From contig OOHK01000001.1 in the NCBI GenBank assembly GCA_900315845.1, positions 186,001 through 250,000 of the forward strand: a stretch of 64,000 nt of DNA. The letters are read 5' to 3'. The notes under the pieces were generated by a model. The model saw only the letters and a program-made list of their open reading frames with translations, was not told the origin of the DNA and ran no database searches. The translations under genes and the position numbers were made by a program. Within the stretch, counting starts at the first letter, position 1. Each line of letters begins with the position of its first letter. Shown here one piece after another: positions 1 through 55,190 of this stretch. The stretch comes from Candidatus Avelusimicrobium luingense (lineage in GTDB: Bacteria > Elusimicrobiota > Elusimicrobia > Elusimicrobiales > Elusimicrobiaceae).

Positions 1-470
1 TTCAGGCGGTTCCCCACATACCCGCGGGAAAGTTGATCTAACACGACCGGTTGGCTGGGATCTAATGATTTATCGGCCCGGTCTAAAAATAAATAGACGT
101 TAGAAAATGCTTGCCGCCACAAATCCACTTCACTAGACGTTCCTTCCCCGGGTGTATAGACTACTTTGTTGGAATCCATACGAGTTAATTCTTCTTCAAA
201 CCATTTGGGAATTTTGCATTGTCCGTTTCTGCAACCGGCAGGCAACGGCCCGCATTTTGCAATGGGCGGCATGGGATATACTTTTTTATCATTGGCCAAA
301 TGCACATCAAAAATTTCAGCCAAAATACTCATTTTTTCCCGAGCGCATTGAATGCGATCGCGATCTTTAGTAGACAAGGCTTTACCATACCCCTGTCCGG
401 CAGTTCCTACAAGAGTAACTGCCACGAGTACACATAAGATAAAAAAGTGAAATTTCTTTATCATAATCAT
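1..470 (-). CDS. Secreted Cys-rich protein of the Tad operon (3' part cut by window edge)
   Basis: I do not recognise this protein. The frame is open from ATG at 470 to the left edge, about 156 codons, with no stop. It begins [20 protein letters not shown], a Lys-led hydrophobic signal peptide, then a mature part with a Cys cluster around residues 75-88 (KCGPLPAGCRNGQC). The start overlaps the stop of the upstream TadZ-TadA gene by one base (TAATG), so the two are probably translationally coupled. An in-frame ATG at 464 is an alternative start. Position as the next gene of the Tad operon suggests a secreted or periplasmic accessory of pilus assembly, but no family assignment is possible from this fragment. 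TadB and TadC, expected in such loci, are not in view and may lie further left. Confidence 0.75.
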   Translation of the reverse strand, partial: MIMIKKFHFFILCVLVAVTLVGTAGQGYGKALSTKDRDRIQCAREKMSILAEIFDVHLANDKKVYPMPPIAKCGPLPAGCRNGQCKIPKWFEEELTRMDSNKVVYTPGEGTSSEVDLWRQAFSNVYLFLDRADKSLDPSQPVVLDQLSRGYVGNRL

Positions 471-2800
471 TAAGCCTGTGGAGCAGCCGGCGGAGCAGGC
501 GGCACGGCGGGCGGTTCAGGAGCAGTCTCCTTACTTGCTTTTGCCTGTTGTAATTGTTGCACCGCATGTAAATCAGGCTCGCCGTTTTCATCTAACGGAA
601 CGGCGCCATGCTTAAATACGGCTTCGTCTATCGGTTGTCCTTTGGCTGCAAATTCTTCATAGAAAGTCGGGAGGTTACCCGTCGGGGCAAATACCCCTTG
701 TACTTTCCCGTTTTCATCTACCCCGGTCTGCACATAGCGGAACAAATCGGTAGATTGGATTTGTCCGTCTTTTTGTCCATGCATCTCGGTAATGTAGGTG
801 ACTTTACGCGAACCATCCGAGAAACGCGACAATTGAACGATCATATTGACCGCCGATGAAATCATTTCGCGGATAGCAAAAATCGGCAAATCGGCCCCTG
901 TCTGCATGCACATCGCTTCCAAACGGGATAATCCGTCGCGCGGCGTGTTGGCGTGAATAGTCGTAAGTGACCCTTCGTGACCGGTGTTCATGGCTTGTAA
1001 CATGTCTAACGCTTCGCCACCGCGGCACTCCCCGACTACAATACGGTCAGGACGCATACGCAAACAGTTTTTAACTAAATCTTGAATCGTTACCGCCCCT
1101 TTTCCTTCTACGTTTGGCGGACGGCTTTCCAGCGATACCCAGTGCGGTTGTTGCAACCGAAGTTCCGCGGTATCTTCTACCGTAATGATACGTTCATCAT
1201 CGGCAATATAACCGGAAATAGCATTTAAGAAAGTGGTTTTACCGGTACCGGTACCACCGCAAACAATAATGTTTTTGCGGATTTTAACGCATTTCTTAAT
1301 AAATTCCATACATTCCGGACTAATCGTACCGAAACGGTAGTAATCTTCCGGGCCGAACGGTTTAGTGGAGAAACGACGAATAGTAAGCGTCGGGCCGGAA
1401 ACAGCGAGCGGCGCAATAATGGCGTTAACACGGGAGCCGTCTTTCAAACGGGCGTCCACGAGCGGCACAGATTCGTCAATACGGCGACCTAAAGGAGCCA
1501 CGATACGTTTAATAACCTGTACCACCTGTTCGTTATTTCTAAATTTGTATTTGGTTAAGGTCAACTTACCTTTTTGTTCGATAAAAATCTTATCAAAGGC
1601 GTTGACCATGATTTCGGTAACAGCCGGGTCGCGCATTAAGACTTCCAGCGGCCCTAACCCTAAAATTTCATCTAGCAATTCCGAAGAAAAACGTTCCCGC
1701 TGTTCGCGCGAAAACTGTAAGTTAGGTTGTTTTTGCAAGATATCATCCACAATGGCGGCCACCCGTTTACGGGTTTGCGCGCTGGCGGCACTTTCGTCGC
1801 TAATAGCGATATGTTCAATTTCCAAGGTGCGCACCACGTCTTTGTGAATTTTCTGTTTCAAATCGTCCCAAAATGACAGTTGAGTCTTAGCCCCGGGGTC
1901 ATCATCGGCAATATGGCTGACGGAAACAGTATCTTTGCCATCATTAAACAACACCGGCGACCAAATTTCTTTAGACGCTTGGGCAAATTCTTCGTCGCTA
2001 ACCGACGCCACCCAATCTTTGGGGGCCGGTTGTAAATCACGAATTTTGGCAAGCACCAAACGCAGCCCTTTTACCCATTCCGATTGCGGATTGGTAATAA
2101 TTTCCACTTCGCGACGGTTGGAGGTGGCCATTACATCGGCATCCCACGGTAAAAACACATCCACTTCGCGCCCAAGTTGGGAATAGAACCGTTCCATTTC
2201 TTCGTAAGGAATAGAACCGGGCATATCATATCCGTTACAAATCACGCTTACGCGGTCCAACGGATAATGTTGTTCTTTATAATCGTTGAAAAGTTGTACC
2301 GTAGAATTGATATGTGTACGGGTAGCATTAGATACCCAAAATACTTTGTCGGCAATATCAAAGGCAAACGCTTGCATCGGGAAACTGGAATCTACATCCA
2401 AAAAGATATCAAACGTTTGTGACAAACGAGATAAAATCGGAATTAAAATCTTCGGGCTAATCGCCGCTACTTGTGCGCGCGTATTACCCAACGGTAATAA
2501 GCCTACGCCCCATTGGGACATAGAAATTTTACCGCGTAACAGCCCCCCCACTACCGCAATAGAGGTATTGCCTAATACTTTAAGCAAATCGGATACGCTA
2601 ACGGGTTTTTCAATATCTAAATAGAAACTGTGTTCTTGCCGCGCCAACGGATCAAGCGGCACAATAAGTACCGGACGTTTCTGTATGCCCGCCCAGCCCA
2701 GCGCCAAATTCAGCACGAGCGTGGTTTTCCCCGCGCCTTCTTTAGGCCCGGCGAAAGCAATTATTTTTGCATCCGTTTTTTGGGAGTCCTGTTCTGCCAT
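470..2800 (-). CDS. tadA: TadZ-TadA (CpaE-CpaF) fusion, Tad pilus assembly ATPase
   Basis: Powers assembly of Flp/Tad pili at the inner membrane. Residues 1-250 form a MinD/ParA-like TadZ (CpaE) domain with a deviant Walker [11 protein letters not shown] at 18-27. Residues ~290-730 form a type II/IV secretion ATPase of the CpaF/TadA family: a [10 protein letters not shown] segment, Walker [11 protein letters not shown] near 512-521, an Asp-box/Walker B region [14 protein letters not shown], and the His box [10 protein letters not shown]. The tail (~750-776) is Pro/Ala rich ([16 protein letters not shown]). TadZ (localisation) and TadA (motor) are usually separate proteins of about 375 and 430 residues; here one frame covers both with no stop or frameshift sign. 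Four bases separate it from the secretin gene upstream, and it overlaps the next gene by one base. The ATPase assignment is secure; the functional effect of fusion is inferred. Confidence 0.93.
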
Positions 2801-2803
2801 AAA

Positions 2804-3547
2804 TTACTCTACGATTTCTACCGTAATGAATAAGAAGAGCGAACGTTGTTCTTCGGTTACGTCTTTGCTCTTGAATAATAAACCAATAAGCGGCAAGCGG
2901 CCTAAGAACGGTACGCGGTCTTCAGACACGTTGCGGGCACTGCTTTTTAAACCACCGATCACTAACGTTTCACCGCTGTTAAGTTCCACATGGGTTTCCA
3001 CATCACGGTTGGTAAAAGACGGCGCCGTGGCAGTACCAATTACTACGGTACGGGAATAGTCCACCGTAGAAACGGCTAATTGAACTTGCAAGTCAATAAT
3101 ATCATTGCGTTCGGGGATAATCGTAGGAAGTACGTTCAGTAAAATACCGTAATCTTCCATCTGCGAACCTACCCCTTGGTTATTGACCACCGGTATCGGC
3201 ACTTTACCGCCGACGGAAATTTTAGCCGGATTGCCGGAAGCGGTTACAATCTTCGGGTTAGAAAGTACTTGTGCGCGTCCTTCCGTTTCCATTAAGCGAA
3301 GGCGCGTAGTAACTGCCGTTTTGCGTTGGAATTCCCCTAACGATAAAATGCCGGGGATTTCCGCTTCTTCAAAGTCGAACAATTGGTTCCACGCAAAACC
3401 TTTAACGCTTTGCATCGTACCGCTGATTTCCACAACATCAGCACTAACGGCCACGAGCCGCGTCTTTTTAGCATGTGCCGGCACCACGCCAAGCACTGCT
3501 GCGAGTAAAACTGCCAAAGATATTTTTGCACTGAATTTTATGTTCAT
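2804..3547 (-). CDS. cpaC: CpaC/RcpA-type secretin, minimal form
   Basis: Outer-membrane secretin domain protein of the Tad pilus. Residues 1-26 are a Sec signal peptide (cleavage after AHA). The rest matches only the secretin core: GRAQVLSNPKIVTASG near 90, the GKVPIPV segment, IPERNDIIDLQV, and the C-terminal VPFLGRLPLIGLLFKSK followed by RSLFLFITVEIVE, which is the classic secretin beta-signal region. At 247 residues it is about half the length of CpaC/RcpA proteins, which carry N-terminal BON/N0-N1 ring domains; those are absent, with only ~55 residues before the core. CpaB lies immediately upstream, 12 bases away, and could supply periplasmic contacts. No frameshift or second fragment is visible in the neighbourhood. 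Secretin identity is clear; pore formation without N domains is an open question. Confidence 0.9.
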   Translation of the reverse strand: MNIKFSAKISLAVLLAAVLGVVPAHAKKTRLVAVSADVVEISGTMQSVKGFAWNQLFDFEEAEIPGILSLGEFQRKTAVTTRLRLMETEGRAQVLSNPKIVTASGNPAKISVGGKVPIPVVNNQGVGSQMEDYGILLNVLPTIIPERNDIIDLQVQLAVSTVDYSRTVVIGTATAPSFTNRDVETHVELNSGETLVIGGLKSSARNVSEDRVPFLGRLPLIGLLFKSKDVTEEQRSLFLFITVEIVE

Positions 3548-3559
3548 AAATTATCCTGT

Positions 3560-4312
3560 TTAGTTAAATAATTTTTCAAAGGTGGCAATTTCCATTAAGT
3601 AATTGTTCACATCACCATGAGAACGTAAGATGACGGAAACTTCGCCTTCTTTTTGGGCTAACGCCAAGTACTGCGCATCGCGCGGAGATAACGCGAGCGA
3701 GAGCGTGGAGTTATCCGAATAAGCGGCGGCTTCTTCGTCTTTGTTCTTCATAGCATTTGCCGTACGAGCATCCAAGCCTTGCCCTAAGTCAGCACCGACA
3801 CCCAACACCTTTACGTTCTGCAAAAGCGTAACGGCTACGGTTTGGCGGGTACCGGTTTTCATAGTGGCTTCAAACGTGAGAAGCACGTCCACGTTATCAT
3901 CCGGCTTAATCATACTGGCTGTCGCTACCGGGACGGAAATAATATATCCGCGCATCTGCACCGGAATTTTACTGGAAAGACCAGCCTCCGGTGAAAGCGA
4001 CGTCACCGCATATTTAGAAATCTGGTTGCCTTTAGGAATTTGAATACGCGCCACAGCATTTTCAATAGCTTTTAGATCTGAATCTGTGGAATAAACAAAT
4101 GCGTCTTTCTGCAAGTAGGCTGCCGGCACCGGTACAGGACGGATAATATCACGCTTAATTACTTCGCGCTCTTTAATATCACGTATAGGCACCAAGACCT
4201 GCTTGATATTTTTAGCCGCATTTAATTTCTTTTCGGCGCTATTTACAATCATTGCATAGATAATAGCCGCAAAAATGGCCACCATCAACGGCAAAAAAAC
4301 TCCTTTTTTCAT
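3560..4312 (-). CDS. cpaB: CpaB/RcpC Flp pilus assembly protein (SAF domain)
   Basis: Periplasmic Tad-pilus assembly factor, 250 residues, about the usual family length. An N-terminal membrane anchor (residues 4-24, LPLMVAIFAAIIYAMIV) is followed by a SAF-like domain: VLVPIRDIKEREVIKRDIIRPVPVP near 40-65, then GNQISKYAVTSLSPEAGL and a RGYIISVPV segment typical of RcpC/CpaB. The C-terminal part has ALSPRDAQYLALAQKEGEVSVILR, also characteristic. In Tad systems CpaB works with the CpaC secretin, and the two genes are adjacent here as usual. ATG is preceded by AAGGAG. The gene sits 38 bases after tadE in the same operon. Confidence 0.92.
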   Translation of the reverse strand: MKKGVFLPLMVAIFAAIIYAMIVNSAEKKLNAAKNIKQVLVPIRDIKEREVIKRDIIRPVPVPAAYLQKDAFVYSTDSDLKAIENAVARIQIPKGNQISKYAVTSLSPEAGLSSKIPVQMRGYIISVPVATASMIKPDDNVDVLLTFEATMKTGTRQTVAVTLLQNVKVLGVGADLGQGLDARTANAMKNKDEEAAAYSDNSTLSLALSPRDAQYLALAQKEGEVSVILRSHGDVNNYLMEIATFEKLFN

Positions 4313-4350
4313 TTGATCTCCTTAAAAACAACTTTACTAATTTTTCAAAT

Positions 4351-4839
4351 CTATTTTTTATCCGCACTCAAATATGCCTTTTCTACCGGCATGCGGGTAA
4401 CTACTTTTATTTTACGGATACCTTTCTTGCGCGGTTCATCGGCAAGTACAAAACTTGTCCCCGGAAATAACAAATGCACCGGGTAAGTAACCGTAACAAC
4501 TACATCTTCGTGGCGATGTTTGGGGTACATCGGGTCAACACCGGTATTTTCCACCTTTACATTGACACTTATACTCCCCGCCTTACTACCAAACACAGAT
4601 TGTTTGGCTCGTTCAATCTTTTGTGTAATAATCGTTCTGTCCGACCGTCCGCTAGGTTTCTTTACTGCCACCAGCGCGCCGATACGTGCAAATTCGTAAG
4701 AAGCGTGATTGACAATTACCGTATGGTAAGCCAAATTGCCGTATTCCAGTACAAAGAAAATCATTAGTACGAACACCGGCATAATCAGCATGAGTTCCGC
4801 AGTAACCTGTCCCCCACGCTTCTTACCGAATTTGAACAT
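4351..4839 (-). CDS. tadE: TadE-like pseudopilin
   Basis: Minor pseudopilin of the Tad system, 162 residues. The N-terminus has a short basic leader ending in Gly-Gly, then QVTAELMLIMPVFVLMIFFV: the TadE signature, in which a prepilin peptidase (TadV) cuts after Gly and Glu at +5 is conserved, followed by a ~20-residue hydrophobic helix. The remaining ~120 residues are soluble and beta-rich by appearance. It lies between the Flp pilin and cpaB in one operon. TadV and a second TadF-like gene are not seen in the window. The assignment rests on the processing site and context. Confidence 0.88.
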   Translation of the reverse strand: MFKFGKKRGGQVTAELMLIMPVFVLMIFFVLEYGNLAYHTVIVNHASYEFARIGALVAVKKPSGRSDRTIITQKIERAKQSVFGSKAGSISVNVKVENTGVDPMYPKHRHEDVVVTVTYPVHLLFPGTSFVLADEPRKKGIRKIKVVTRMPVEKAYLSADKK

Positions 4840-4848
4840 AAAACGACC

Positions 4849-5076
4849 TTAATCCATCCCGGCGCCCAAACCACCGAAAATCTTGGCTTGGACTTGCTCC
4901 CATAATTGCGGGAAGAATTTTTTAATAGCCGCACCGGCCAAGCCAGCTACGCCGACGACGACTACGAGCATCAGCACGTATTCAATCGTGTTTTGCCCTT
5001 CTTTTCTTTTTACGCATTCCAACGCTTTGGCTTGAATGCTGTTCATTTTGTTTTGCAACGCGACGATAAACTTCAT
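4849..5076 (-). CDS. flp: Flp-family pilin subunit 1
   Basis: Likely a structural subunit of the Tad pilus, 75 residues, typical of Flp/PilA pilins (50-80). The processing site is KEG|QNTIEYVLM: cleavage after Gly, with Glu-Tyr at mature positions 5-6, the Flp signature. A hydrophobic helix (IEYVLMLVVVVGVAGLAGAA) follows, then a short amphipathic tail ending GGLGAGMD. The leader before the cleavage site is about 27 residues, as usual for Flp. Its ATG is preceded by a strong AGGAGG ribosome-binding site, the best in this operon, consistent with high expression of a major subunit. A second Flp-like gene lies just upstream. Confidence 0.9.
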   Translation of the reverse strand: MKFIVALQNKMNSIQAKALECVKRKEGQNTIEYVLMLVVVVGVAGLAGAAIKKFFPQLWEQVQAKIFGGLGAGMD

Positions 5077-5103
5077 AGTTCATCCTCCTAATATTTTATA
5101 AAA

Positions 5104-5286
5104 CTAATCTTCCGTTTTATATTCCTTCAAAATCAATTGTGCCCCTTGTTCAAATTGTTTAGGCACTAAATTAGAGTATAACACGTAAAAGGAAAGAAAC
5201 GCGGTAAAAAGTCCACCCGCTACGATAATATATTCAATGGCGGTTTGTCCTTTTTTATTCTTTCTTAACCCTCTTACGTTAAACAT
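5104..5286 (-). CDS. Flp-family pilin-like subunit 2
   Basis: Small pilin-like protein, 60 residues. The processing site is KKG|QTAIEYIIVAGG, with the Glu-Tyr pair of Flp pilins, followed by a hydrophobic helix to residue ~40 and a short charged tail (KEYKTED). The leader is only ~13 residues, shorter than in the neighbouring Flp gene, so it could be a minor pilin or pseudopilin rather than the main subunit. It sits two bases after the PorV-like gene stop and 27 bases before flp in the same operon. Confidence 0.85.
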   Translation of the reverse strand: MFNVRGLRKNKKGQTAIEYIIVAGGLFTAFLSFYVLYSNLVPKQFEQGAQLILKEYKTED

Positions 5287-5288
5287 AC

Positions 5289-6272
5289 CTAAAATTGCAC
5301 AGACACGGCAATCTGTTGCGACGTACCTAATGCCCCAAACGGAGTTACTGCGTAGTCAATAGACGCACCGTAACCAAACAGTTCGGAACTGTAAATGCCA
5401 AAACCGAACGATACACGGGATGTTTCTTGCAAACCTACATCTTTCACCCAAGAATCTTCCGTATTGATACCTGTATTTTCACGCGTATAATATCCGACGC
5501 GCAAATCAAACCGTGCTACTTGCAATAAATCTTCCGGAATATGGACGGCTAACCCTACACCATAGCGGGCATTGTCGTCTTTGTATTTCATATATTCACC
5601 GGAAATGGTGAAATAGCGGGTATCTAAATCAGCCCCTAAACGAAGACCGTTAGGCATTTCGTCTTTATCGCCGATGTTGACTAATGCACCACCCAAGCCG
5701 AGCCAATTGACTAAGCGGAGTTTAGCGCCCACATCAAACCCGATATTATCATAATGGTTATGGCCCGAACCGTTATACAAACGTTCCGTAATATACTTAG
5801 CCGTACCGCCGATTTGAAGTTTTTGGTTAATAAACCCGCGGGCGATAGAAATACCCCCCACAAAGTTTTGCACCGGCACGCCGACCTCCGGGAGTTGTTG
5901 CCCCCATTTATCGCGGAAATCGAAATTATCCATATCCATATAATTCAAGGATACGCCGATAATAGTTCTACCGATAGGTTGCAAGTAAGAAAGCGTACGT
6001 GCTTTATATCCTTGCAAATAGTCCATGTAAGTAAAACCGATTTCGCGCGTGGTGGCACTGGCCGCCCCGGCGGGGTTCCAATACAAGGCTTGCGGGCCGT
6101 CTGCGATGGACACATAGGCATTACCTAATGCCGTAGCGGCAGGAGCCCCAGCGCCGATTTTCAAGAACGAGGCCGCACTTGTACCGGCTTTTTCGTTAAT
6201 ACTGGCAAATGCATTTACTCCACACAAGCCAACGGCTAAACATACGGTTAAAACTTTAGTTTTGATATTCAT
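5289..6272 (-). CDS. PorV/PorQ-family outer-membrane beta-barrel protein
   Basis: Predicted outer-membrane barrel, 327 residues, with a Sec signal peptide (residues 1-23, ending VNAFA). The mature start contains GTSAASFLKIGAGAPAATAL and NAYVSIADGPQALYWNPAG, the hallmark of the PorV/PorQ (UPF0164) family. Alternating beta strands follow (QIGGTAKYITERLY, GLGGALVNIGD, TISGEYMKY) and the protein ends in Phe (QIAVSVQF), as many barrel proteins do. In Bacteroidetes PorV is the shuttle of type IX secretion and binds C-terminal sorting domains; in other phyla PorV-like proteins occur without the full system. Here it directly follows the giant FlgD-Ig secreted protein and precedes the pilin genes, which suggests a role in exporting or anchoring that protein. 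That role is inference. Confidence 0.85.
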   Translation of the reverse strand: MNIKTKVLTVCLAVGLCGVNAFASINEKAGTSAASFLKIGAGAPAATALGNAYVSIADGPQALYWNPAGAASATTREIGFTYMDYLQGYKARTLSYLQPIGRTIIGVSLNYMDMDNFDFRDKWGQQLPEVGVPVQNFVGGISIARGFINQKLQIGGTAKYITERLYNGSGHNHYDNIGFDVGAKLRLVNWLGLGGALVNIGDKDEMPNGLRLGADLDTRYFTISGEYMKYKDDNARYGVGLAVHIPEDLLQVARFDLRVGYYTRENTGINTEDSWVKDVGLQETSRVSFGFGIYSSELFGYGASIDYAVTPFGALGTSQQIAVSVQF

Positions 6273-6311
6273 AAATGTTTTTTCCTTTTGTTAAATGAAA
6301 ATCTATTCTCC

Positions 6312-9300
6312 TTACGGGATTAATACTTTCACTACCTTTTGGCAGTGTTCGCGTCCCATGCGGGCCTTGAAATCTACCAGCCCGAAGTACACTCCGCGTG
6401 CCACTTTCTTTCCGTGTTGGTTCGTTCTGTCCCAGCGGCAACGTAATGCGGCGTTGCGTACGTTGGGATAATCGTCCAACTGTTGCGGAGTCATCACACT
6501 GGATCCTTCCGGCGTGTTATCCGGGTTGAACGCTAAACTATTGCCCATCGTTACCATATAATTGTTCGCGTCCACACACTCGTAGTTCCCTTCGCGCACC
6601 AAATCGCCTGCCAAGTTGAAGAACTTGATAGATACTTCTCCGGGCACCGGCATCTTGGTAATTTCAAGCGTACCTTTGCTGGCATCGGTTAACGGGTTCG
6701 GATAGAAGAACACTGTTTTCTCCCAATCCGCGCAAACGAACCGTCCGTCACCGATAGCAATGGTGGCTTTGTGTAAGTTTTGATACTCATACGTATCGGC
6801 TACGCGTTGAATCTTCCAATCCGTCGGGGTTGCGCTGGAATCGTCTCCAGCTAACATCTCGCCCGTTACAGAATCTATATCGGCCGAGTTCAAGGCCGTT
6901 ACGAAGCGGAACGGATAGGTCCCGTCGGGTACTTCTTGACCGGCGTAGTCTGTACCATCCCAGATTTCTTCTATCAAGGTCGTTGCCGGGCGGATACCCA
7001 CGATCGATTTAACTAATACTTCGCGGATATCTTTTACTTCCGTCCCCGTGGTCGGGTTACGTAAGGTACCCTTTTCATAATCGTAAATGGTCGTTCCCGG
7101 TTTGAAGATTTGCAACGCCACTTTCATCGGCACGGATATCTGATATCCTATGCGCATGGTAGTACCGCGTTGCGAAATGGAATAACCATCTGCCTCTAAC
7201 AAGTCAAACACTTTTAACAAGTCCGCATTGAGCGTGATTTGTTTGACTGTCGGTTCATACAAATCCGGATTCGGATAGTTGCGCGCGGTTAAACGTACTT
7301 CATAAATACCCGGTTTGACATAGAAACCGTTATTATCGGTACCGTCCCAATACGCTTTGCGCACAATGTTCGGGTCAAAGTGTCCCGTATTGGCAATGGT
7401 CATCGTGGACAAGAACTTACAGACATCTCCCGGCGCGTTGTTCTTCAAGTCCTGATGGATAGCCGGGTCCGGGTTACAGACACCCGCCTGTAAGGCCACG
7501 ATAGCAATTTCTACCGTCGCCGCACGGCTGACCGAGAAGTTGATTTCGTACGGCGGTACAAACACCGGGCCGGACGATACGTTAAAGAGTTGCGGCGCAT
7601 TCGGATATACTACCGTTGAGCCGTCCAAGAAGTACACCGCTCCGCGCGTTACGTTCACTTTGCCCACATTCTTATCGGTGGCATACAGATACGATTGGGT
7701 GATCGTTTCAGAACTGTTCTTAAACGGAGCGCCCGGTAAATATTTCTGCACCGGGGTCGTACCCGGGATGGGTTCTGTACCATCGGAATAATATCTGTCA
7801 AACGGTTCGTTGGAGCGAGCCGACACGAAGAACGGATATTGTCCGTCCGGCACCATCTCATACGAGCATTGGCGCAAGTCGGTAGCACCCGCACAAGCCG
7901 CACTGACCGGGTTGCGGAAATATAACGCATCCCATTCTTCCGTGATTTGCAAACCGTCGCCAGGTTTTAACGAACTGCGTTCAAACGTTTTGATCGGTTG
8001 TAAGCGCACATCTACTACCCCAGAGGCCGCTATGTTAGCATTGGCCGGGTAGTTCGTGAAGAAGGCATCTTTTACATAGATACATTTCGGTTGTTTGCGC
8101 GGCGCCACAGCACCTACTGTCGCCGTACCCGCTGTTACTTCCGGATCCGTTGCTACATAAAATACCGTATTGGCCCCACCATCTGTGTTTTGGTCGCAGA
8201 TTCGCGGCGGCCACACGGCGGTTGTCGTCGGCACTGTAATATATTCGCGTAAAATGTTGACACGATACGCACAACTCGACGGGTTGGTTACCGTGCAGAC
8301 CGTAGACGTACCGTCATATAACGGGTTCGGACTGACCGTAATCGTATCGCGGTAAGTCGGCGGGTTCGCTGTATCCAATACCACATCGGCTGTTGCCGTT
8401 CCGTTAAAGGTGGAAGCGTCACTTAACGTAGCCGTTACCGCTACACCCGTGTTGGCCGCATACGTTACCCCCGTAGCCGTACCGGTTACGTTGGTATATT
8501 CGCCCGCGCCACTCGTGTAATCCGGGATGACGACATCCTTATTATATATATTGAGTTGTACGCTCATCGCTTTGGACAATGAGTACGATAACGTGGCTCT
8601 TGCTTCGCTATCGCCGTACACATCCGTGGTTGACAAATCTACTACGCGGTACATGTCCACCGGGAACACCGCACTCGCACGGTTGGTTACCGCCGGGAAC
8701 ATAGCGTCTTTCGTTTCCACAACAAACATATAGGTGCCGGGCGTTACCATGCGGCCCGCATCATCACGTCCGTCCCAAGACAGCGTGTTCATTTGTTGCG
8801 CTACTTGCGTTACGCCTTCTTCGGGCGTTAAGTATTTCACATCTACGCCGGCCGTGTTGGTTACTTTGGCGATTGCCGTAGCATCACGCGCAATAGAATA
8901 TTTGAAAATGAACGGATCTAATCCATACGCCGTCGGGCTGGAGCCAACCGTTGCGTAACTGACCGGTTGTATCGTTACATCTACCACCCCGCGTTCTATG
9001 GCTATTTCTCCCGTGTTATATTTTAACGTCTTTACACCCGTAAAGCACTGACGGTTGATTTCGGCATCGTTGGCGGTACCCGTGACATTGGTCGGGTTGG
9101 CGCACTCTGCTCCGGCGGTGAAAGCGGGCGTTCCGTTGCCGCCTACCGCATTGACGTATTTACCGTTGTACGGGATTTCCGCCCATAATGCATAGACGTA
9201 GTTACCGTCGTTCATCGGGGCACCGTAAGCGAAGGTTTCTTCACATCCTGCCGCATCGGTACAAACCGCACCGGTGGATAATTTTTCACCTTGTGCATAG

Positions 9301-11696
9301 CGGCGTTGACAACGTAAGTAATACGAGCAACCGCCGGCGGTCGTACAAACTTGTCCGCTTAAATCTGTGCCCGTAAAAGTGCTGTTTGAATTGGCTCCGG
9401 GCGGGAAAATTTGGTTATGCGCCACGTGACGTTCTATCAGGCTGTTAATACCGCACGTACCGTCCCAACGGCTGTTAAAGTTCATGCGGCCCACGCGGTC
9501 TTCTTCTAATATATTGACTAAATATCCGGTAGGTTTGGAAGGCGTGCCACCATCCATGGTTACTTTCGGAGCCGTTCCGACCGGGGTGGCCGAGTTGGTC
9601 AACACACCGGCGGTAGAGCCACTGCCGTCAAACGTCGTGCCGGGCGTGTAAATGTACCAATAGACTTTAGAAGATTCCGTCGGCGTGTAGGCAATAGACG
9701 CATACGCCGTGGACTTTTTGGTCAAGCCCGACGATACAATATCCGTTAATTTCAACGGATCTAACGATAATTGACGCGTTACCGCGCGGGAGAAATCTAC
9801 GCCGCTCCACTCATCGGCCGATTTGGCTTGCAACGCAACAATATAGTTGCCCGCGGGGAGGAATAACCCCTGGTCGTTGCGGCCGTCCCACGAGTCAAAC
9901 GCTTGGATGTTGACGTCTTTTTCTACGCCTTTCATTCCTTCGCCTAACCGCGGTTGCCAATCTACTAAATTGCGAACGATTAAACCGGATGCCGTCGTCG
10001 TAGAACTACCAATAGCCGTATTGGTACCGTCCGTGTAGGCGATATCATCCCCGTTGGATGCATCAAAAATAGCAATGCGCACATCCGCATCTTTACTTAA
10101 GCGGTATGCATATGTATAAGGTTGTGCATCTACCTTAGTAATGTTACCTACTACGCTGGGCGTGCTGCGTACGGTATGTAAATTGGTTACATCTACCTGT
10201 ATCGGTATTTGGTTCATACCGGGGTAAGCAATCGTGGAGTCAAAAGTAATTTTATCTACGATAACGTTATCGCCGGGCACGTCCGTTTTGACGGTCGCAC
10301 GGAAAGCAAAATTACCATTGGTTTTACCGAATTCCCCGTTGATTTCGTACGAGCCGTCCCATGCGGCGCAGAACGGAATGGCGGCATTACCGTTGGACGA
10401 CGTACCGTCGTTGTTCCAAACAGCATAGTCACAACTGTACCCACCCGAAGTAGTCGCCCCTGCAGGTTTAGTTCCCCCTGTACAGGTACAAGAGTGGGCA
10501 GAATTATCTGCAAAACTTTTACAATCTGAACGAGTACAAGTGTATACTCCGCTACTCTCAGAGCAAGTACCCATACCATCCGTCTCTACATAATACAATG
10601 CTCCGCCGCAAGTGTTACCGCTTTCCACACCGCCCGGGCATTTATATGAACCGCACTTGGCCGATTCTTGGTTCGGGTATAAGTCAATGGTGCGAATGGC
10701 CGGGGTTTCTTCGGGATTTTCCACATTTTTATTGTTGTAATATTTTACAACGTCAAATTTAATATTCTGTAACGGGAACGCAATAGAATAGGTACTGCCG
10801 CCAATCGGTTTATTGTTGCAATACACATTCATACAAAGCGCCAAACAATGGTTCGGATACTCATTTGTTCCGGGCGTTTCCGACGTCGGGAAGGGTTGGT
10901 CGTACTCAATCAACGCGGAACTGACCCACGGGTCATTCCCATGCGACGCACTGGCAGGTTGCGGTTCAAAAATAAAACTACGGTTAGACACACTTCCGTC
11001 CGCAACCGATATCGTGTACGCATTGGGCCCAAACGAGTTCACCTTAAAGCAATATTTTTTTTGCGTGGTGTAAACAGTGTTGTCAAATTCAAGATAGTAA
11101 TATGTGTCCGATCGATAGGCGCCACCCGATGTACGCGGTGCCGCGGAAATAGTCGTACTACACGAGACTTTTGAAAGAGTCAACTCACCGTCATTAACCG
11201 ATTCCGCTACAGAAGTAACGACTGTTTCACTTGTCATCGTCGGGGCCCATGTACTGCCGCTTGTTCCGGCTTTTACTACCGTGTAATACGTGTAATTTCC
11301 CACCGGACCACGTCTAAAACAATTACCTACGCTGTAACTATGATTTGCCACCCAATCTACGCCACAAAACCATCTTGTCGCTAGATTTTCAGTTGTCGTA
11401 ATATAGTGGGCGGTTCCATCGTGATAAACGTTAAGAGTCTGACTGTAACTTAAACGCGTCAGCAAATCTTCATTCGTTTCCGAACCCGCATTGCGCGTAC
11501 CCGTGCTACCGGTAGTATAATCGCAATACATGGCCTTTTCGCTACCCGGATTATTTTGGTAGAACACACCGGCGTAACGGACTTCGGCCGATTGGGCAAA
11601 CGACGGTATTTCCGCCGCCACCAAAACAAACAGCAAGGCCGCCAACAAGGCCGCTTTGCCGACGATAATACGAATTAAATTTCTGTTATTTTTCAT
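6312..11696 (-). CDS. Giant secreted protein with FlgD-Ig-like repeats, first gene of the Tad operon
   Basis: 1794 residues with a Sec signal peptide (hydrophobic core ~14-29, cleavage near SFAQS). The N-terminal ~500 residues are rich in Ser/Thr/Tyr and include a Cys-dense stretch around 370-430 (CTCTGG, CSESSG, CTRSDC), suggesting disulphides. Later come at least four FlgD-Ig-like units marked by WDGRNDQG-LPAGNY, WDGRDDAG-VTPGTY, WDGTDNNG-VKPGIY and WDGTDYAG-VPDGTY. The C-terminus (~1650-1794) is a further FlgD-Ig-like or T9SS-sorting-like domain: FFYPNPLTD, VSIKFFNLAGDLV, then WDRTNQHGKKVARGVYFG and a basic end. Such domains occur on exported surface proteins. Heading an operon with a PorV homologue and Tad genes, it may be a surface adhesin or pilus-associated protein. 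Function is inferred; the exact family of the N-terminal half is unknown to me. Confidence 0.88.
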   Translation of the reverse strand: MKNNRNLIRIIVGKAALLAALLFVLVAAEIPSFAQSAEVRYAGVFYQNNPGSEKAMYCDYTTGSTGTRNAGSETNEDLLTRLSYSQTLNVYHDGTAHYITTTENLATRWFCGVDWVANHSYSVGNCFRRGPVGNYTYYTVVKAGTSGSTWAPTMTSETVVTSVAESVNDGELTLSKVSCSTTISAAPRTSGGAYRSDTYYYLEFDNTVYTTQKKYCFKVNSFGPNAYTISVADGSVSNRSFIFEPQPASASHGNDPWVSSALIEYDQPFPTSETPGTNEYPNHCLALCMNVYCNNKPIGGSTYSIAFPLQNIKFDVVKYYNNKNVENPEETPAIRTIDLYPNQESAKCGSYKCPGGVESGNTCGGALYYVETDGMGTCSESSGVYTCTRSDCKSFADNSAHSCTCTGGTKPAGATTSGGYSCDYAVWNNDGTSSNGNAAIPFCAAWDGSYEINGEFGKTNGNFAFRATVKTDVPGDNVIVDKITFDSTIAYPGMNQIPIQVDVTNLHTVRSTPSVVGNITKVDAQPYTYAYRLSKDADVRIAIFDASNGDDIAYTDGTNTAIGSSTTTASGLIVRNLVDWQPRLGEGMKGVEKDVNIQAFDSWDGRNDQGLFLPAGNYIVALQAKSADEWSGVDFSRAVTRQLSLDPLKLTDIVSSGLTKKSTAYASIAYTPTESSKVYWYIYTPGTTFDGSGSTAGVLTNSATPVGTAPKVTMDGGTPSKPTGYLVNILEEDRVGRMNFNSRWDGTCGINSLIERHVAHNQIFPPGANSNSTFTGTDLSGQVCTTAGGCSYYLRCQRRYAQGEKLSTGAVCTDAAGCEETFAYGAPMNDGNYVYALWAEIPYNGKYVNAVGGNGTPAFTAGAECANPTNVTGTANDAEINRQCFTGVKTLKYNTGEIAIERGVVDVTIQPVSYATVGSSPTAYGLDPFIFKYSIARDATAIAKVTNTAGVDVKYLTPEEGVTQVAQQMNTLSWDGRDDAGRMVTPGTYMFVVETKDAMFPAVTNRASAVFPVDMYRVVDLSTTDVYGDSEARATLSYSLSKAMSVQLNIYNKDVVIPDYTSGAGEYTNVTGTATGVTYAANTGVAVTATLSDASTFNGTATADVVLDTANPPTYRDTITVSPNPLYDGTSTVCTVTNPSSCAYRVNILREYITVPTTTAVWPPRICDQNTDGGANTVFYVATDPEVTAGTATVGAVAPRKQPKCIYVKDAFFTNYPANANIAASGVVDVRLQPIKTFERSSLKPGDGLQITEEWDALYFRNPVSAACAGATDLRQCSYEMVPDGQYPFFVSARSNEPFDRYYSDGTEPIPGTTPVQKYLPGAPFKNSSETITQSYLYATDKNVGKVNVTRGAVYFLDGSTVVYPNAPQLFNVSSGPVFVPPYEINFSVSRAATVEIAIVALQAGVCNPDPAIHQDLKNNAPGDVCKFLSTMTIANTGHFDPNIVRKAYWDGTDNNGFYVKPGIYEVRLTARNYPNPDLYEPTVKQITLNADLLKVFDLLEADGYSISQRGTTMRIGYQISVPMKVALQIFKPGTTIYDYEKGTLRNPTTGTEVKDIREVLVKSIVGIRPATTLIEEIWDGTDYAGQEVPDGTYPFRFVTALNSADIDSVTGEMLAGDDSSATPTDWKIQRVADTYEYQNLHKATIAIGDGRFVCADWEKTVFFYPNPLTDASKGTLEITKMPVPGEVSIKFFNLAGDLVREGNYECVDANNYMVTMGNSLAFNPDNTPEGSSVMTPQQLDDYPNVRNAALRCRWDRTNQHGKKVARGVYFGLVDFKARMGREHCQKVVKVLIP

Positions 11697-11931
11697 GTGT
11701 ATATTTCCCTTTTAATTGGGTATCCTTTTTCAAATTTTATCACAGCGTTTGCGACGTAAAAATAATAGTACGCGCAAGGCGGCGCGTTTAGATTTCTCAA
11801 AAACACGCCGACATAGTACTATTACATTTTTACAACTTTTGAAAGGCTTGTCAAGTTTTTTTTGACGGAAAATTTGACGAAAAAAAGAAAAGCGAAAACC
11901 ATATAACCGAAATATATATATATATAATTAA
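11697..11931. other. Intergenic leader region of the Tad operon
   Basis: No gene seen. On the minus strand it forms the ~130 nt leader of the giant-protein mRNA, including an imperfect hairpin at 11777-11807 (CGGCG..CGCCG with GTTT/AAAC inside). Further right are a duplicated TTTGACG motif (11871-11889) and an AT repeat (11913-11925). A ribosome site AAGGGA precedes the ATG at 11696. No known riboswitch was recognised. Confidence 0.5.
11827..11854 (-). promoter_or_regulatory. Putative sigma-70 promoter of the giant-protein/Tad operon
   Basis: On the minus strand TTGACA (11849-11854) is followed by a 16-base spacer and TAAAAA (11827-11832). It is the best match upstream of the 11696 start and would give a 5' leader of about 130 nt. 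Prediction from consensus only. Confidence 0.5.
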
Positions 11932-11964
11932 AAAAATCTCACCCAAGAGAGTGAGATTTTTTCT
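11932..11964 (-). terminator. Rho-independent terminator after the GAF-GGDEF gene
   Basis: Inverted repeat AAAATCTCAC / GTGAGATTTT with a short loop, followed on the minus strand by a T run. It begins 16 bases after the stop at 11980 and closes the long minus-strand housekeeping operon. Confidence 0.85.
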
Positions 11965-11979
11965 TATAAACAGATCTTC

Positions 11980-13506
11980 TTATTTATCGGTTTTTTCGTC
12001 GGTAGGTTCGTTTTGTTGCACTTGGTCGGCAACTTCGCGGTACACCGCAAAACTGCCCCGCCCGTGTTGCTTAACCACGTACAACGCTTGGTCGGCCTTT
12101 TCCAACAAATCTTGCGTGGTGGTAGCATCGGACGGATAAGAAGATATCCCTTGGCTGATACTTAAATGTTCCGGTTCAATAGCATCCCGGTCCGGCAAGG
12201 TAATATCGCAAATGCGCGATTGCAAACGGCGAGCGATTACTTTGGCTTCTTCACTATTGGTACGCGGGAGCATAATGATCATTTCGTCCCCACCGAAACG
12301 GCAAGGCACATCCGTCTGCCGTAAAGATGAGCGAATAATTTTACTGACCGCTTTTAATGCCCAGTCGCCGATTTGGTGCCCGTGTTTATCGTTAATTTGT
12401 TTGAACCAGTCAATATCCATGATAATCAGCGAGAGCGACAACCCAAACCGTTTGGCCCGGTAAATTTCTTCGGCAAATTTTTCGTTAAAATAACGGCGTA
12501 CCGGCAGTTTAGTCAGTTCATCATAATTGGAAAGTTCCTGCACGCGCTCAAACAGACGGGCATTATCAATAGTTAACGCCAGTTGCGTAGCAAACTGTTG
12601 TAAAGAAATAAAGTCCAAATATCCTATTTTCCGACGGGATAAAATATTATCAAACGTCAAGAAACCCACTTTTGTACGCTGCACTTTAAGCGGCAGATAA
12701 ATAACACTGCGTATCGCGCGGTACGTGGCGGGCGAATCAAATACTTCTTTTAAAATTTGTTTTTCTTCGTCGCGCAAACTATCGCCCGATTCATGCGTAA
12801 CATTGCCCGAAATATCTACCCCAAGTACCGATTTAATACGCGAACCTTCGGAATTGGTCAAATATAAGTGTACTCGGTCAAAATGGAAATAGCGTTGTAC
12901 CCCTTTCAAAATAAGTTCCAAACCGTCGTTTAAGCGTAATGACGAAGCAAAAATGGTGGACAAATCATTGAGTGCCGTAGAGATATTAAGACGTTGGTTT
13001 TTGGCTTGGTCAATTTCGGTATTATGTAAATTATGGGAAATCTCTTGCCCCAAATCTTTAATTAAATCAATTTCTTGCGATGTGAAAACGCGTTTTTTGC
13101 GGAAGCGCTCTAAACGAAGCACCCCTACTTTTTCGCGCATAATAGAGCGGACTTCGCCCGATTTTAATTCCATCGTCGGGCGTAACCACCGGATGAGCAC
13201 ATACAAGGCCGGGTAACTTAAATCCGTCGTTTCCGCTACCCCTTCTTGTAACAACTGACGTAAAAAGGAAGGCTCGTTGGCTACGGAAATATCTTCCTGC
13301 ATATCCATGCAGTACTCTTTTTTGCACATCATCTTAAGTGATAAAATGGCCCGTTCCTGTTGCCAATCAAAAAAATACACCCGGTCTAATTTGAATAAAT
13401 CACGCAAGGCAGGCAAGGCACATTCCAACAGTTCGCGTTTGTCTTGGAACGATTGGTTTAACTCTTTATGAAATTTATAAAGTGTATATGATTTCTTATC
13501 AAACAT
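11980..13506 (-). CDS. GAF-GAF-GGDEF diguanylate cyclase
   Basis: Probable cytoplasmic sensor enzyme that makes cyclic di-GMP from two GTP; 508 residues with no membrane segment. Residues ~1-165 and ~175-335 look like two GAF domains (VYFFDWQQERAILSL; FHFDRVHLYLTNSEG, then IRSVIYLPLKVQRTKVGFL). The GGDEF domain (~340-495) starts LTKLPVRRYFNEKFAEE and has the MDIDWFKQINDKHGH metal/substrate segment. Its signature is GGDEM at ~404-408 instead of GGDEF/GGEEF; the last position is tolerant, so activity is plausible. RQTD five residues upstream is an intact RxxD inhibitory I-site. It lies 4 bases after a binding-protein-like gene and ends its operon, so the two may form one signalling unit (inference). 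Confidence 0.9.
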   Translation of the reverse strand: MFDKKSYTLYKFHKELNQSFQDKRELLECALPALRDLFKLDRVYFFDWQQERAILSLKMMCKKEYCMDMQEDISVANEPSFLRQLLQEGVAETTDLSYPALYVLIRWLRPTMELKSGEVRSIMREKVGVLRLERFRKKRVFTSQEIDLIKDLGQEISHNLHNTEIDQAKNQRLNISTALNDLSTIFASSLRLNDGLELILKGVQRYFHFDRVHLYLTNSEGSRIKSVLGVDISGNVTHESGDSLRDEEKQILKEVFDSPATYRAIRSVIYLPLKVQRTKVGFLTFDNILSRRKIGYLDFISLQQFATQLALTIDNARLFERVQELSNYDELTKLPVRRYFNEKFAEEIYRAKRFGLSLSLIIMDIDWFKQINDKHGHQIGDWALKAVSKIIRSSLRQTDVPCRFGGDEMIIMLPRTNSEEAKVIARRLQSRICDITLPDRDAIEPEHLSISQGISSYPSDATTTQDLLEKADQALYVVKQHGRGSFAVYREVADQVQQNEPTDEKTDK

Positions 13507-24090: not shown

Positions 24091-24630
24091 TTATTCTTCC
24101 CCGTCTTCATAACAGGCCGATTCTGTGCCGTCTGAACAGCATGCAGAAACCGGATTTTCAATCCCGCAAAAATCGGCACACAAACTTTGGCCGTTTGGTT
24201 CCGGACTTTCACAAGTCACATATTCGCTTAAATAAAACCGTACGAGCGTATAATTATATGTCATTTCTTTATTGTAATTATAACGGATGGCTTCCGCATA
24301 TCCCTCATCCGGCTCTCCATCGTAAATGGTGACGGCAAAACCATTACTATTGACGCCGGTAACTGGATCTCCTTGGGTATAATAAGTCGCCCCGGTCGCT
24401 CCTTGGGGGGCCACATCTAACGTGGCAAAATTCGTTGTAAACTTATTGTTTCCCATCCAATTGCGTTGTTGGGCTTTCGCAATAGCATCTAACAACATAA
24501 CGGCTTCTGTCATACGAGCGCGTTCTACCGCTTTCATATATTGCGGCATGGCAAGCGCGGCCAAAATACCGATAATAAGCACCACCACTAATAATTCAAT
24601 CAGCGTGAAACCCGTTTTGTTTGATTTCAT
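24091..24630 (-). CDS. Type IV prepilin (pilin A of six), Cys-rich C-terminus
   Basis: Type IV pilin/pseudopilin subunit, 179 residues. Leader MKSNKTG, cleavage after Gly, then mature FTLIELLVVVLIIGILAALA with Glu at +5, the class III signal recognised by a PilD-type peptidase. The helix continues AMPQYMKAVERARMTEAVML. The C-terminal ~45 residues contain six Cys (CESPEPNG, CADFCG, CCSDGTESACYEDGEE), so disulphides probably stabilise the globular head. It is a single gene with its own promoter and terminator between the S2P-protease gene and cca, not in a pil operon; PilB, C, D and Q are absent from the window. Confidence 0.93.
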   Translation of the reverse strand: MKSNKTGFTLIELLVVVLIIGILAALAMPQYMKAVERARMTEAVMLLDAIAKAQQRNWMGNNKFTTNFATLDVAPQGATGATYYTQGDPVTGVNSNGFAVTIYDGEPDEGYAEAIRYNYNKEMTYNYTLVRFYLSEYVTCESPEPNGQSLCADFCGIENPVSACCSDGTESACYEDGEE

Positions 24631-26801: not shown

Positions 26802-27293
26802 CTACCGGGAAATTAAATACATATCATAACTGGAGTTGCTCGGATCCACCATTACTTCCGTATCCCCATACATCTTTTTACAAACCTGTTGGGTTTTAGC
26901 CGTTCCCGTTAACGAACAATACATTTTCCCTTTATTAAGTTGATAAATCAAATACACGTAATTGGGCAGAAATTTCGCTCTTGTTTCTAAATGGGGAGCC
27001 GTTCCGTTGGTGTCCAATATAATAGCCGTCCAATTGGGGCTGAAAACGCTCGCGCCAACCCCCATGTCTAACGCATCCATATCCGTCGTATATTCACCGT
27101 TAGCCAAGTAATAGGCTTCTTCCGCTTTTCCCATGGATTCCAATACGGCCATAGCCTGCGTCATTTTGGCTTTATTAACGGCTTGTTTATATTGTGGAAG
27201 TGCTACCGACGCCAAAATGCCGATAATTAAAACCACCACCAATAATTCTATCAGCGTAAAACCGCCTAAACGACCGGATATTTTATGTGTCAT
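26802..27293 (-). CDS. Type IV prepilin (pilin B)
   Basis: Type IV pilin/pseudopilin, 163 residues from the ATG at 27293. An in-frame ATG at 27317 would add eight residues, but AAGGAG lies eight bases before 27293, so that start is chosen. Leader MTHKISGRLGG, cleavage after Gly, mature FTLIELLVVVLIIGILASVA with Glu +5. Continues LPQYKQAVNKAKMTQAMAVL. The C-terminal head has one Cys pair about 15 residues apart (MYCSLTG, QVCKKM), the usual disulphide loop of type IV pilins. Monocistronic, with its own promoter holding a T11 run; it lies between tRNA-Arg(TCG) and yebC. Confidence 0.94.
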   Translation of the reverse strand: MTHKISGRLGGFTLIELLVVVLIIGILASVALPQYKQAVNKAKMTQAMAVLESMGKAEEAYYLANGEYTTDMDALDMGVGASVFSPNWTAIILDTNGTAPHLETRAKFLPNYVYLIYQLNKGKMYCSLTGTAKTQQVCKKMYGDTEVMVDPSNSSYDMYLISR

Positions 27294-27330
27294 AAAAAGG
27301 CTCCTTGTGTTTAACATAATCCACAGCGAT

Positions 27331-50316: not shown

Positions 50317-50868
50317 ATGAATCGGAAAGCCTTTACACTCATTGAATTATTAGTAGTTGTTTTAATTATCGGTATTTTGGCCAGTGTCGCCTTGCCACAA
50401 TATCAAAAGGCTGTTGAAAAAAGTAGGGCGACACAAGCGCTTACACTACTCAAATCATTGGCACAAGCGCAAACAGTTTATTTTTTAAGTAACGGACATT
50501 ATGCCACCTCTTTTTCTGAACTAGACATAGAAATTCCATGGACGGGAAATGAAAAATGGTTTACGAATTGGATAACAGACACCCGCTCCAATGGCGAGTG
50601 GTCCGTACAAATTTATCAATCAAACACAGAAACTCAACTTTTTGTGGGCCGCTTAAAAGGACGGTATGCCGGTGCAGGATTTTACCTGTCTCTTGCATTA
50701 AATGCTACAAGTATAGCAAACGAGCGAACGGAAAATGACATTTTTTGTGGAGAAGTTCTCTCTGGCGAAACCATTGCCTACAATGGGCCGGCCGGGGGAT
50801 ATTGCAAAAAATTATTTGGGGCAACCTTGGTACAAACTAACACATCCCGAATCTATAAAATGCCCTAA
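50317..50868 (+). CDS. Type IV prepilin (pilin D) between two convergent tRNA genes
   Basis: Type IV pilin/pseudopilin, 183 residues. Leader MNRKA with Ala at -1, then FTLIELLVVVLIIGILASVA with Glu +5 and LPQYQKAVEKSRATQALTLL. The head has two Cys (IFCGEV, GGYCKKL) near the C-terminus, placed like the disulphide loop of type IV pilins. AAGGAG precedes the ATG. The gene is alone between tRNA-Gln and tRNA-Arg(CCT), with inverted copies of a structured element on both sides, so gene plus flanks form a ~1.1 kb cassette. Its 5' coding sequence closely matches that of pilin 54187. Confidence 0.94.
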   Translation: MNRKAFTLIELLVVVLIIGILASVALPQYQKAVEKSRATQALTLLKSLAQAQTVYFLSNGHYATSFSELDIEIPWTGNEKWFTNWITDTRSNGEWSVQIYQSNTETQLFVGRLKGRYAGAGFYLSLALNATSIANERTENDIFCGEVLSGETIAYNGPAGGYCKKLFGATLVQTNTSRIYKMP

Positions 50869-54186: not shown

Positions 54187-54708
54187 ATGAATAACCAAGC
54201 CTTTACGCTTATTGAGTTATTAGTAGTCGTTTTAATTATCGGCATTTTGGCCAGTGTAGCCTTGCCGCAATATAAGGTGGCGGTAGCCAAAGCACGGATG
54301 ACGCAACTAGTCACGCTGGCTAACGCAGTAAAACAAGCCGAAGAAAGATACTATATGGCCAACGGACAATATACAGCCAATTGGTCAGAACTGGATATTG
54401 ATTTGGAAGGAACTGTAAATAATACAACCATTACAAATGCCGCCGGATGGGGCTTGAATTTAAATTCATATATAGAAGGATCAAATTGGGAATCGGTATC
54501 GGCCTGGGACACACGTTTAGCCTATGACGGGGCGGCGGCTTCCAAACATCTGTATTTGACTTTTTCTTTTGATAACGCCCATGCACATGCCGGAGCCAGA
54601 CTTTGCTTTACTCCCCAAAACAGCGAATTAGGTATCACGCTGTGCAAACACGCCAGCAATAACGCTCCCCGGCAAAGCCAAACCGGGCAATACTGGTATA
54701 AGTTCTGA
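54187..54708 (+). CDS. Type IV prepilin (pilin E)
   Basis: Type IV pilin/pseudopilin, 173 residues. Leader MNNQA with Ala at -1, mature FTLIELLVVVLIIGILASVA with Glu +5, then LPQYKVAVAKARMTQLVTLA. Head region includes ANGQYTANWSELDIDLEGT, a common motif (ANGxYTxxxxELD) shared with the other pilins here, and two Cys (ARLCFTP, TLCKHA). AAGGAG precedes the ATG. Its stop lies 5 bases from the stop of the convergent pilin at 54714, with no terminator between them. Confidence 0.94.
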   Translation: MNNQAFTLIELLVVVLIIGILASVALPQYKVAVAKARMTQLVTLANAVKQAEERYYMANGQYTANWSELDIDLEGTVNNTTITNAAGWGLNLNSYIEGSNWESVSAWDTRLAYDGAAASKHLYLTFSFDNAHAHAGARLCFTPQNSELGITLCKHASNNAPRQSQTGQYWYKF

Positions 54709-54713
54709 TCTGA

Positions 54714-55190
54714 TTAGCGCAAGGCGTAGCAGTTATAACCGCTTTCCGGACAAGTGACCTTGTCGATGCCTACGGTTTTGCAAAAGTCATTGGCTTTGGT
54801 ATCGCTCGCCGCAGCCACACAATCATATGTTCCGCGTGCCATATAATAAATAATGTACCAACGTCCGGAATTTCCGAGTTTGCGTCGTTCTGCCTGAATA
54901 TGCATGACAGAAGTATTAGTACTATGAATGGCTACGGCAAAATCCGGATTGGAAGGGACGGACAGATCTAACTCATCTACCTGGCCGGTATATTGTCCGT
55001 TGGCCAAATGATAAACTTCTTCGGCCTGAACGATGGATCTGACCATGGTAACGGCTTGCACCAAATGAGATTTTTCTATGGCTTTTTGATACTGTGGAAA
55101 TGCCACCGCCGCCAAAATGCCGATAATTAAAACTACCACTAAAAGTTCAATGAGTGTAAATCCGCCTAAACGGCTTGATATTTGTTTCAT
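54714..55190 (-). CDS. Type IV prepilin (pilin F)
   Basis: Type IV pilin/pseudopilin, 158 residues. Leader MKQISSRLGG with Gly-Gly before cleavage, mature FTLIELLVVVLIIGILAAVA with Glu +5, then FPQYQKAIEKSHLVQAVTMV. The head has YHLANGQYTGQVDELDLSV and four Cys (TYDCVAA, DFCKTV, VTCPES, YNCYALR). The leader resembles that of pilin 26802 (SGRLGG), while its convergent neighbour has the Ala -1 type. GAGG precedes the ATG. Monocistronic as far as can be seen. Confidence 0.93.
   Translation of the reverse strand: MKQISSRLGGFTLIELLVVVLIIGILAAVAFPQYQKAIEKSHLVQAVTMVRSIVQAEEVYHLANGQYTGQVDELDLSVPSNPDFAVAIHSTNTSVMHIQAERRKLGNSGRWYIIYYMARGTYDCVAAASDTKANDFCKTVGIDKVTCPESGYNCYALR

Follow-up and report, generated by a model that had tools for sequence, protein, structure and literature searches.

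A Tad pilus operon in Candidatus Avelusimicrobium luingense encodes a giant putative adhesin and a PorV-family barrel, with a SprA/Sov homologue elsewhere in the genome

The 64,000-nucleotide window analysed here (C8:186001-250000 of the 1.46-Mb genome of Candidatus Avelusimicrobium luingense, a gut member of the phylum Elusimicrobiota) contains a Tad (Flp) pilus operon that is headed by the genes for a giant secreted protein and a barrel of the PorV/PorQ family. As read from the sequence, the genes for the giant, PorV, both Flp prepilins, TadE, CpaB, a shortened secretin and the fused TadZ-TadA are packed closely into a single operon (Table 1). The interpretation that we favour, and consider reasonably probable, is that the giant is a surface adhesin that would be exported through a SprA channel like that of the type IX secretion system (T9SS), collected by a PorV dedicated to it and expressed alongside Tad pili. 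A broader proposal is put forward more tentatively, and we lean slightly against it: that a reduced T9SS-like route exists outside the Fibrobacteres-Chlorobi-Bacteroidetes (FCB) group and places a giant variable adhesin alongside a Tad pilus. Such a route would comprise a SprA-type channel, a dedicated shuttle of the PorV family and, in the present genome, only one cargo, with neither the GldLM motor nor the PorU sortase.

To assess conservation, 40 Elusimicrobiaceae loci were selected by their TadA match, and the best PorV match served to pick additional loci from the class; as the family loci were chosen by TadA, PorV was not a selection criterion for them. In all 61 loci with both TadA and PorV (Elusimicrobiota, seven sampled families) the genes shared a common strand and order, and the giant homologue was directly upstream of PorV in 54/54 loci, the other seven contigs ending earlier. 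This conservation of the operon far exceeds chance. An earlier note on this DNA had tied the giant and PorV genes to the Tad genes, and their co-conservation bears this out.

The strict conservation in seven families could also be explained by export of the giant through the Tad machinery (via the secretin), or by its being a pilus tip or minor subunit, with PorV as a separately recruited outer-membrane anchor. We regard this as quite unlikely: the giant carries an ordinary Sec signal peptide and lacks a prepilin motif, the genome encodes a SprA homologue, and the giant's type of C-terminal domain is paired with porV at many loci without Tad genes, so that the pair does not depend on Tad. For two further families of this class (L218, L219), as well as for other classes (L206-L214, L221-L223), the best PorV gene was not beside Tad genes. 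At 14 of 20 non-Tad loci the porV gene immediately followed a gene whose product ends in the C-terminal domain type of the giant. The cargo at these loci carried unrelated other domains (beta-helix, TIG, carboxypeptidase-regulatory-like), and because the paired cargo domains differ so widely, the C-terminal domain appears to act as a movable sorting signal with PorV as its partner. In the present genome the pairing is reduced to one giant and one PorV.

The giant consists of a Sec signal peptide, a hypervariable region, FlgD-Ig repeats (four FlgD_ig stretches) and a C-terminal sorting-like domain, and is the sole FlgD_ig protein found in its genome. Within the genus, residues ~62-240 are hypervariable or absent and are flanked by conserved blocks, and the C-terminal 350 residues are ~70-85% identical. 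This pattern would fit an adhesin whose distal part varies and whose anchored end stays constant. The Ig-like C-terminal domain is homologous to the type A sorting domains of the T9SS. Its profile (A2) had the C-terminal domain of PorU as first match in the PDB (E=2.4e-4), and PorU was also the top Foldseek match of its structure model (pLDDT 85). Among 35 relatives the domain was matched by TIGR04183 in 26/35 at E 0.01, by the PorZ model in 29/35 and by Por_Secre_tail in 18/35, and the domain of the window giant itself matched the C-termini of PorZ and PorU.

Several species have more than one giant gene (L081, L230-L239). Genome G083 carries a tandem pair that is identical apart from the 5' end, and in G005, G054 and G024 giant copies on separate contigs converge into the same sequence; contigs end at such multi-copy genes because the copies share near-identical downstream parts. 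A repeated 3' end was rejected as the reason for the contig breaks of the present genome, where the 3' DNA is single copy. Four free-living relatives (G109, G150, G111, G120) have very large open reading frames (ORFs; up to 17613 aa) with a sorting-like domain.

The barrel gene product reached 93.6 bits against the PorV_fam model NF033709 (cut-off 90) and is the only PorV_fam protein above the cut-off in its genome. Two weak PorV_fam matches in the same genome were rejected as PorV, as they belong to TraF_2 and FadL/Toluene_X. The sole PDB match of the PorV profile (A3) was the PorV chain of SprA complexes (E=5e-10). The structure model showed a 14-stranded outer-membrane barrel (pLDDT 83), with 8gl6_F, a PorV with the bound C-terminal domain of RemA, as top Foldseek match (TM 0.64). 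FadL family structures ranked close behind, as expected of a fold that the PorV/PorQ family and FadL share. This would be compatible with a FadL-like small-molecule transporter in an operon that merely coordinates unrelated surface genes; we consider such a role very unlikely, since the first fold matches include PorV of T9SS complexes, the sequence profile matches PorV only, and porV genes follow genes with a sorting-like domain end at most loci. PorV is described here as the putative dedicated shuttle of the giant.

A single SprA/Sov homologue of 1796 aa is encoded elsewhere in the genome (C7:180758-186145, minus strand) and scored 124 bits against TIGR04189 (cut-off 200). One protein of ~1800 aa, likewise below the cut-off, was matched by this model in each of 41 relatives, and no match was obtained in 14 control genomes. 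All 18 aligned SprA-like proteins (18/18) matched TIGR04189, the best with E=2.8e-51, and the profile of this alignment (A1) found SprA only in the PDB (E=7e-34), in three collinear stretches; as a single query against the PDB the protein of the present genome gave no match, and profile A1 alone found SprA. The SprA-like proteins end in QF, as expected for an outer-membrane barrel. A homologue was present in 214 of the 248 Elusimicrobiota genomes searched, usually in one copy. The named records among the matches listed in the SprA profile scan were all Elusimicrobiota, which has no bearing on other phyla. Across the 248 genomes, 200 had both a SprA-like protein and PorV, 30 had neither and 18 were discordant; as the genomes are related, the p-value of this association is indicative only.

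Beside the SprA-like gene, in divergent orientation to it, are two lptF/lptG-type permease genes (G000:C7:180758-188442; L131:4756-12442). The arrangement recurs in much of the phylum and would favour another job for the SprA-like protein, for example one linked to lipopolysaccharide transport, with the PorV pair working without it; the Endomicrobium-type genomes discussed below point the same way. Such a division is in our judgement unlikely, given that the profile matches SprA alone in the PDB, that no LptD family match was obtained for the SprA-like proteins, and that SprA-like and PorV genes were lost together in 30 genomes. A link to lpt genes is also compatible with a role in a T9SS, as the type A cargo of known systems is attached to lipopolysaccharide (PMC9143113). 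The export or holding of the giant with PorV help, as the earlier note had proposed, is well supported at sequence level by the co-conservation and the SprA/Sov homologue.

Several results weigh against a T9SS-like route for the giant. The SprA-like proteins score under the TIGR04189 equivalog cut-off, the window PorV does not reach the PorV equivalog cut-off, and the C-terminal domain of the window giant itself fails E 0.01 against TIGR04183. Some Endomicrobium-type genomes have a SprA-like gene, and no PorV was found in them. A search of 11 genomes (the present one and 10 relatives) did not detect GldM (GldL was not searched for); a GldM match of 15 bits in the present genome was taken as chance, and there was none in the 10 relatives. 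In 21 genomes PorU was matched through its C-terminal part alone and the catalytic part was not found; no match exceeded the cut-off and none occurred in the present genome. Nearly all PorU-model matches in relatives fell in the C-terminal region, often of very large proteins. Hence, of the other T9SS parts that the earlier note had considered, the SprA/Sov homologue was recovered, whereas GldM was not and PorU only by its C-terminal domain. Of the T9SS parts that the searches covered (SprA/Sov, PorV, a cargo with sorting domain, GldM and PorU), GldM and the PorU sortase were not recovered. For this reason the system is not classed as a T9SS; it is a T9SS-like core that would work like one, and not a complete T9SS.

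On the favoured reading, in which the giant is a PorV-collected surface adhesin, the protein would enter the periplasm via its Sec signal peptide, and its folded Ig-like C-terminal domain would be recognised at the SprA/Sov-type channel. The adjacent PorV barrel would then collect the giant and retain it at the cell surface. Lacking a PorU sortase, the system may leave the C-terminal domain bound to PorV, in the way that type B cargo stays on PorP/SprF-like proteins (PMC9143113, PMC12618676). The long FlgD-Ig stalk would display the variable N-terminal region, which would serve as adhesin, and co-transcription with the Flp/Tad genes would make pilus and adhesin appear together. The sequence itself shows the genes, their conserved order, the homology to PorV, to SprA and to T9SS sorting domains, and the pairing of domain and porV genes across the phylum; the route of transport, a sortase-free hold on the surface, a role as adhesin and a functional connection with the pilus are our inference. 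The fixed link to the Tad genes suggests that adhesin and pilus may be one attachment device in gut Elusimicrobia.

With the T9SS of Bacteroidota this set shares a SprA homologue, a PorV-family barrel and a cargo with a Sec signal and an Ig-like C-terminal domain. It differs in that GldM and the catalytic part of PorU were not found, in that cargo and shuttle are encoded inside a Tad operon, in the length of the SprA-like protein (1796 aa compared to 2403 aa for SprA of Bacteroidota) and in belonging to a phylum outside FCB. A precedent for the gene-level pairing is found in Flavobacterium johnsoniae, where shuttle genes immediately follow those of type B adhesins, for which they are specific (PMC12618676). 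The large adhesin gene with its shuttle gene directly downstream and the dedicated pairing are common to both; in contrast to the SprF/PorP-like shuttles of F. johnsoniae, the shuttle here belongs to the PorV/PorQ family, and its cargo has a C-terminal domain that resembles those of type A. SprA or the T9SS has been called FCB- or Bacteroidota-specific (PMC12611786, PMC7463736, PMC11205867), and a literature search, with subscription papers outside its reach, found no paper that mentions SprA and Elusimicrobia together. If true, a set of SprA, PorV and sorting domain in Elusimicrobiota would alter the picture of where the T9SS pathway arose, and would offer a near-minimal natural version (one channel, one shuttle, one cargo) in which to learn what parts a T9SS really requires.

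The genes and the order given in the earlier note, from the giant to TadZ-TadA, were confirmed on the minus strand at the stated coordinates by ORFs and family matches (Table 1). Its end of the operon at position 470 did not hold, as the operon continues past the window edge with TadB, TadC, tetratricopeptide repeat (TPR) proteins and sensor genes. The genes seen outside the window include those for HAMP and histidine kinase proteins and for response regulators, together with TadE-like and TadG-looking ones. The intergenic gaps from the giant to TadZ-TadA are, in transcription order, 39, 2, 27, 9, 38, 12 and 3 bp.

Table 1. Features of the operon and its upstream region, in window positions.
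Feature	Position	Strand	Remarks
GAF-GGDEF diguanylate cyclase gene	11980-13506	minus	upstream of giant gene; conserved neighbour
Intrinsic-terminator-like hairpin	11930-11963	minus	3' of GGDEF gene; 15-pair stem and T run (pattern scan)
Best minus-strand sigma-70-like site	11826-11854	minus	before giant gene; TTGACA-17-AAAAAT with TG; consensus match only
Giant secreted protein gene	6312-11696	minus	1794 aa
Ig-like C-terminal domain of giant	6312-6794	minus	last 160 residues; stop codon included
PorV/PorQ-family barrel gene	5289-6272	minus	NF033709 match
Flp-type prepilin 1	5104-5286	minus	60 aa; Flp_Fap 16.7 bits, under cut-off; motif KGQTAIEY; position kept in relatives
Flp-type prepilin 2	4849-5076	minus	75 aa; Flp1_like 16.8 bits, under cut-off; motif EGQNTIEY; position kept in relatives
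TadE-like pseudopilin	4351-4839	minus	PF07811 above cut-off
CpaB/RcpC	3560-4312	minus	TIGR03177 above cut-off
Short CpaC-type secretin	2804-3547	minus	247 aa; PF00263 E=7e-43; little sequence before secretin domain
TadZ-TadA fusion ATPase	470-2800	minus	776 aa; T2SSE E=6e-61 and CbiA E=4e-8
TadB, 5' part	3-470	minus	whole gene 550 aa, G000:C8:184818-186470; T2SSF residues 385-508

The Tad parts were recognised as follows. T2SSE and CbiA in a single protein identify a TadA-type ATPase with TadZ, for which the best NCBIfam match was a TadA-family model; its cut-off of 373 bits was not reached (329 bits). PF00482 was found in both of two TadB/TadC membrane proteins, TadB lying mostly and TadC entirely beyond the window. 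TadE was recognised above cut-off, the Flp prepilins by their prepilin motif and fixed position, and CpaC/RcpA and CpaB/RcpC by PF00263 and TIGR03177. No prepilin peptidase TadV/CpaA was recognised among the ORFs around the operon, and no genome-wide search was made for it. Tad systems have already been reported in Elusimicrobia (PMC6668835), and Flp pilins, TadE, CpaB, CpaC, TadZ, TadA, TadB and TadC are common to this operon and known Tad systems. The differences are that the giant and PorV lead the operon, that TadZ and TadA are fused, that the secretin lacks most periplasmic domains and that TadB has a long N-terminal extension. This extension has a signal-peptide-like start and is conserved in relatives (window 470-1).

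The GGDEF gene is probably transcribed separately from the giant-led operon, from which a terminator-like hairpin and a promoter-like site divide it. The totals of both kinds of site in the pattern scan were not above those in shuffled sequence, so that they lend this separation little weight. In order-level relatives two extra genes are present between the GGDEF and giant genes (L139:13613-16984), one for a barrel with a coiled coil and one for a coiled-coil protein with a transmembrane segment.

Elsewhere in the window, single type IV pilin-like genes with a near-identical N-terminus, FTLIELLVVVLIIGILA, are scattered at 24091-24630, 26802-27317, 50317-50868, 54187-54708 and 54714-55190. An ORF resembling polyketide or polyunsaturated-fatty-acid synthases occupies 55865-64000; it encodes at least 2711 aa and contains four near-identical acyl-carrier repeats.
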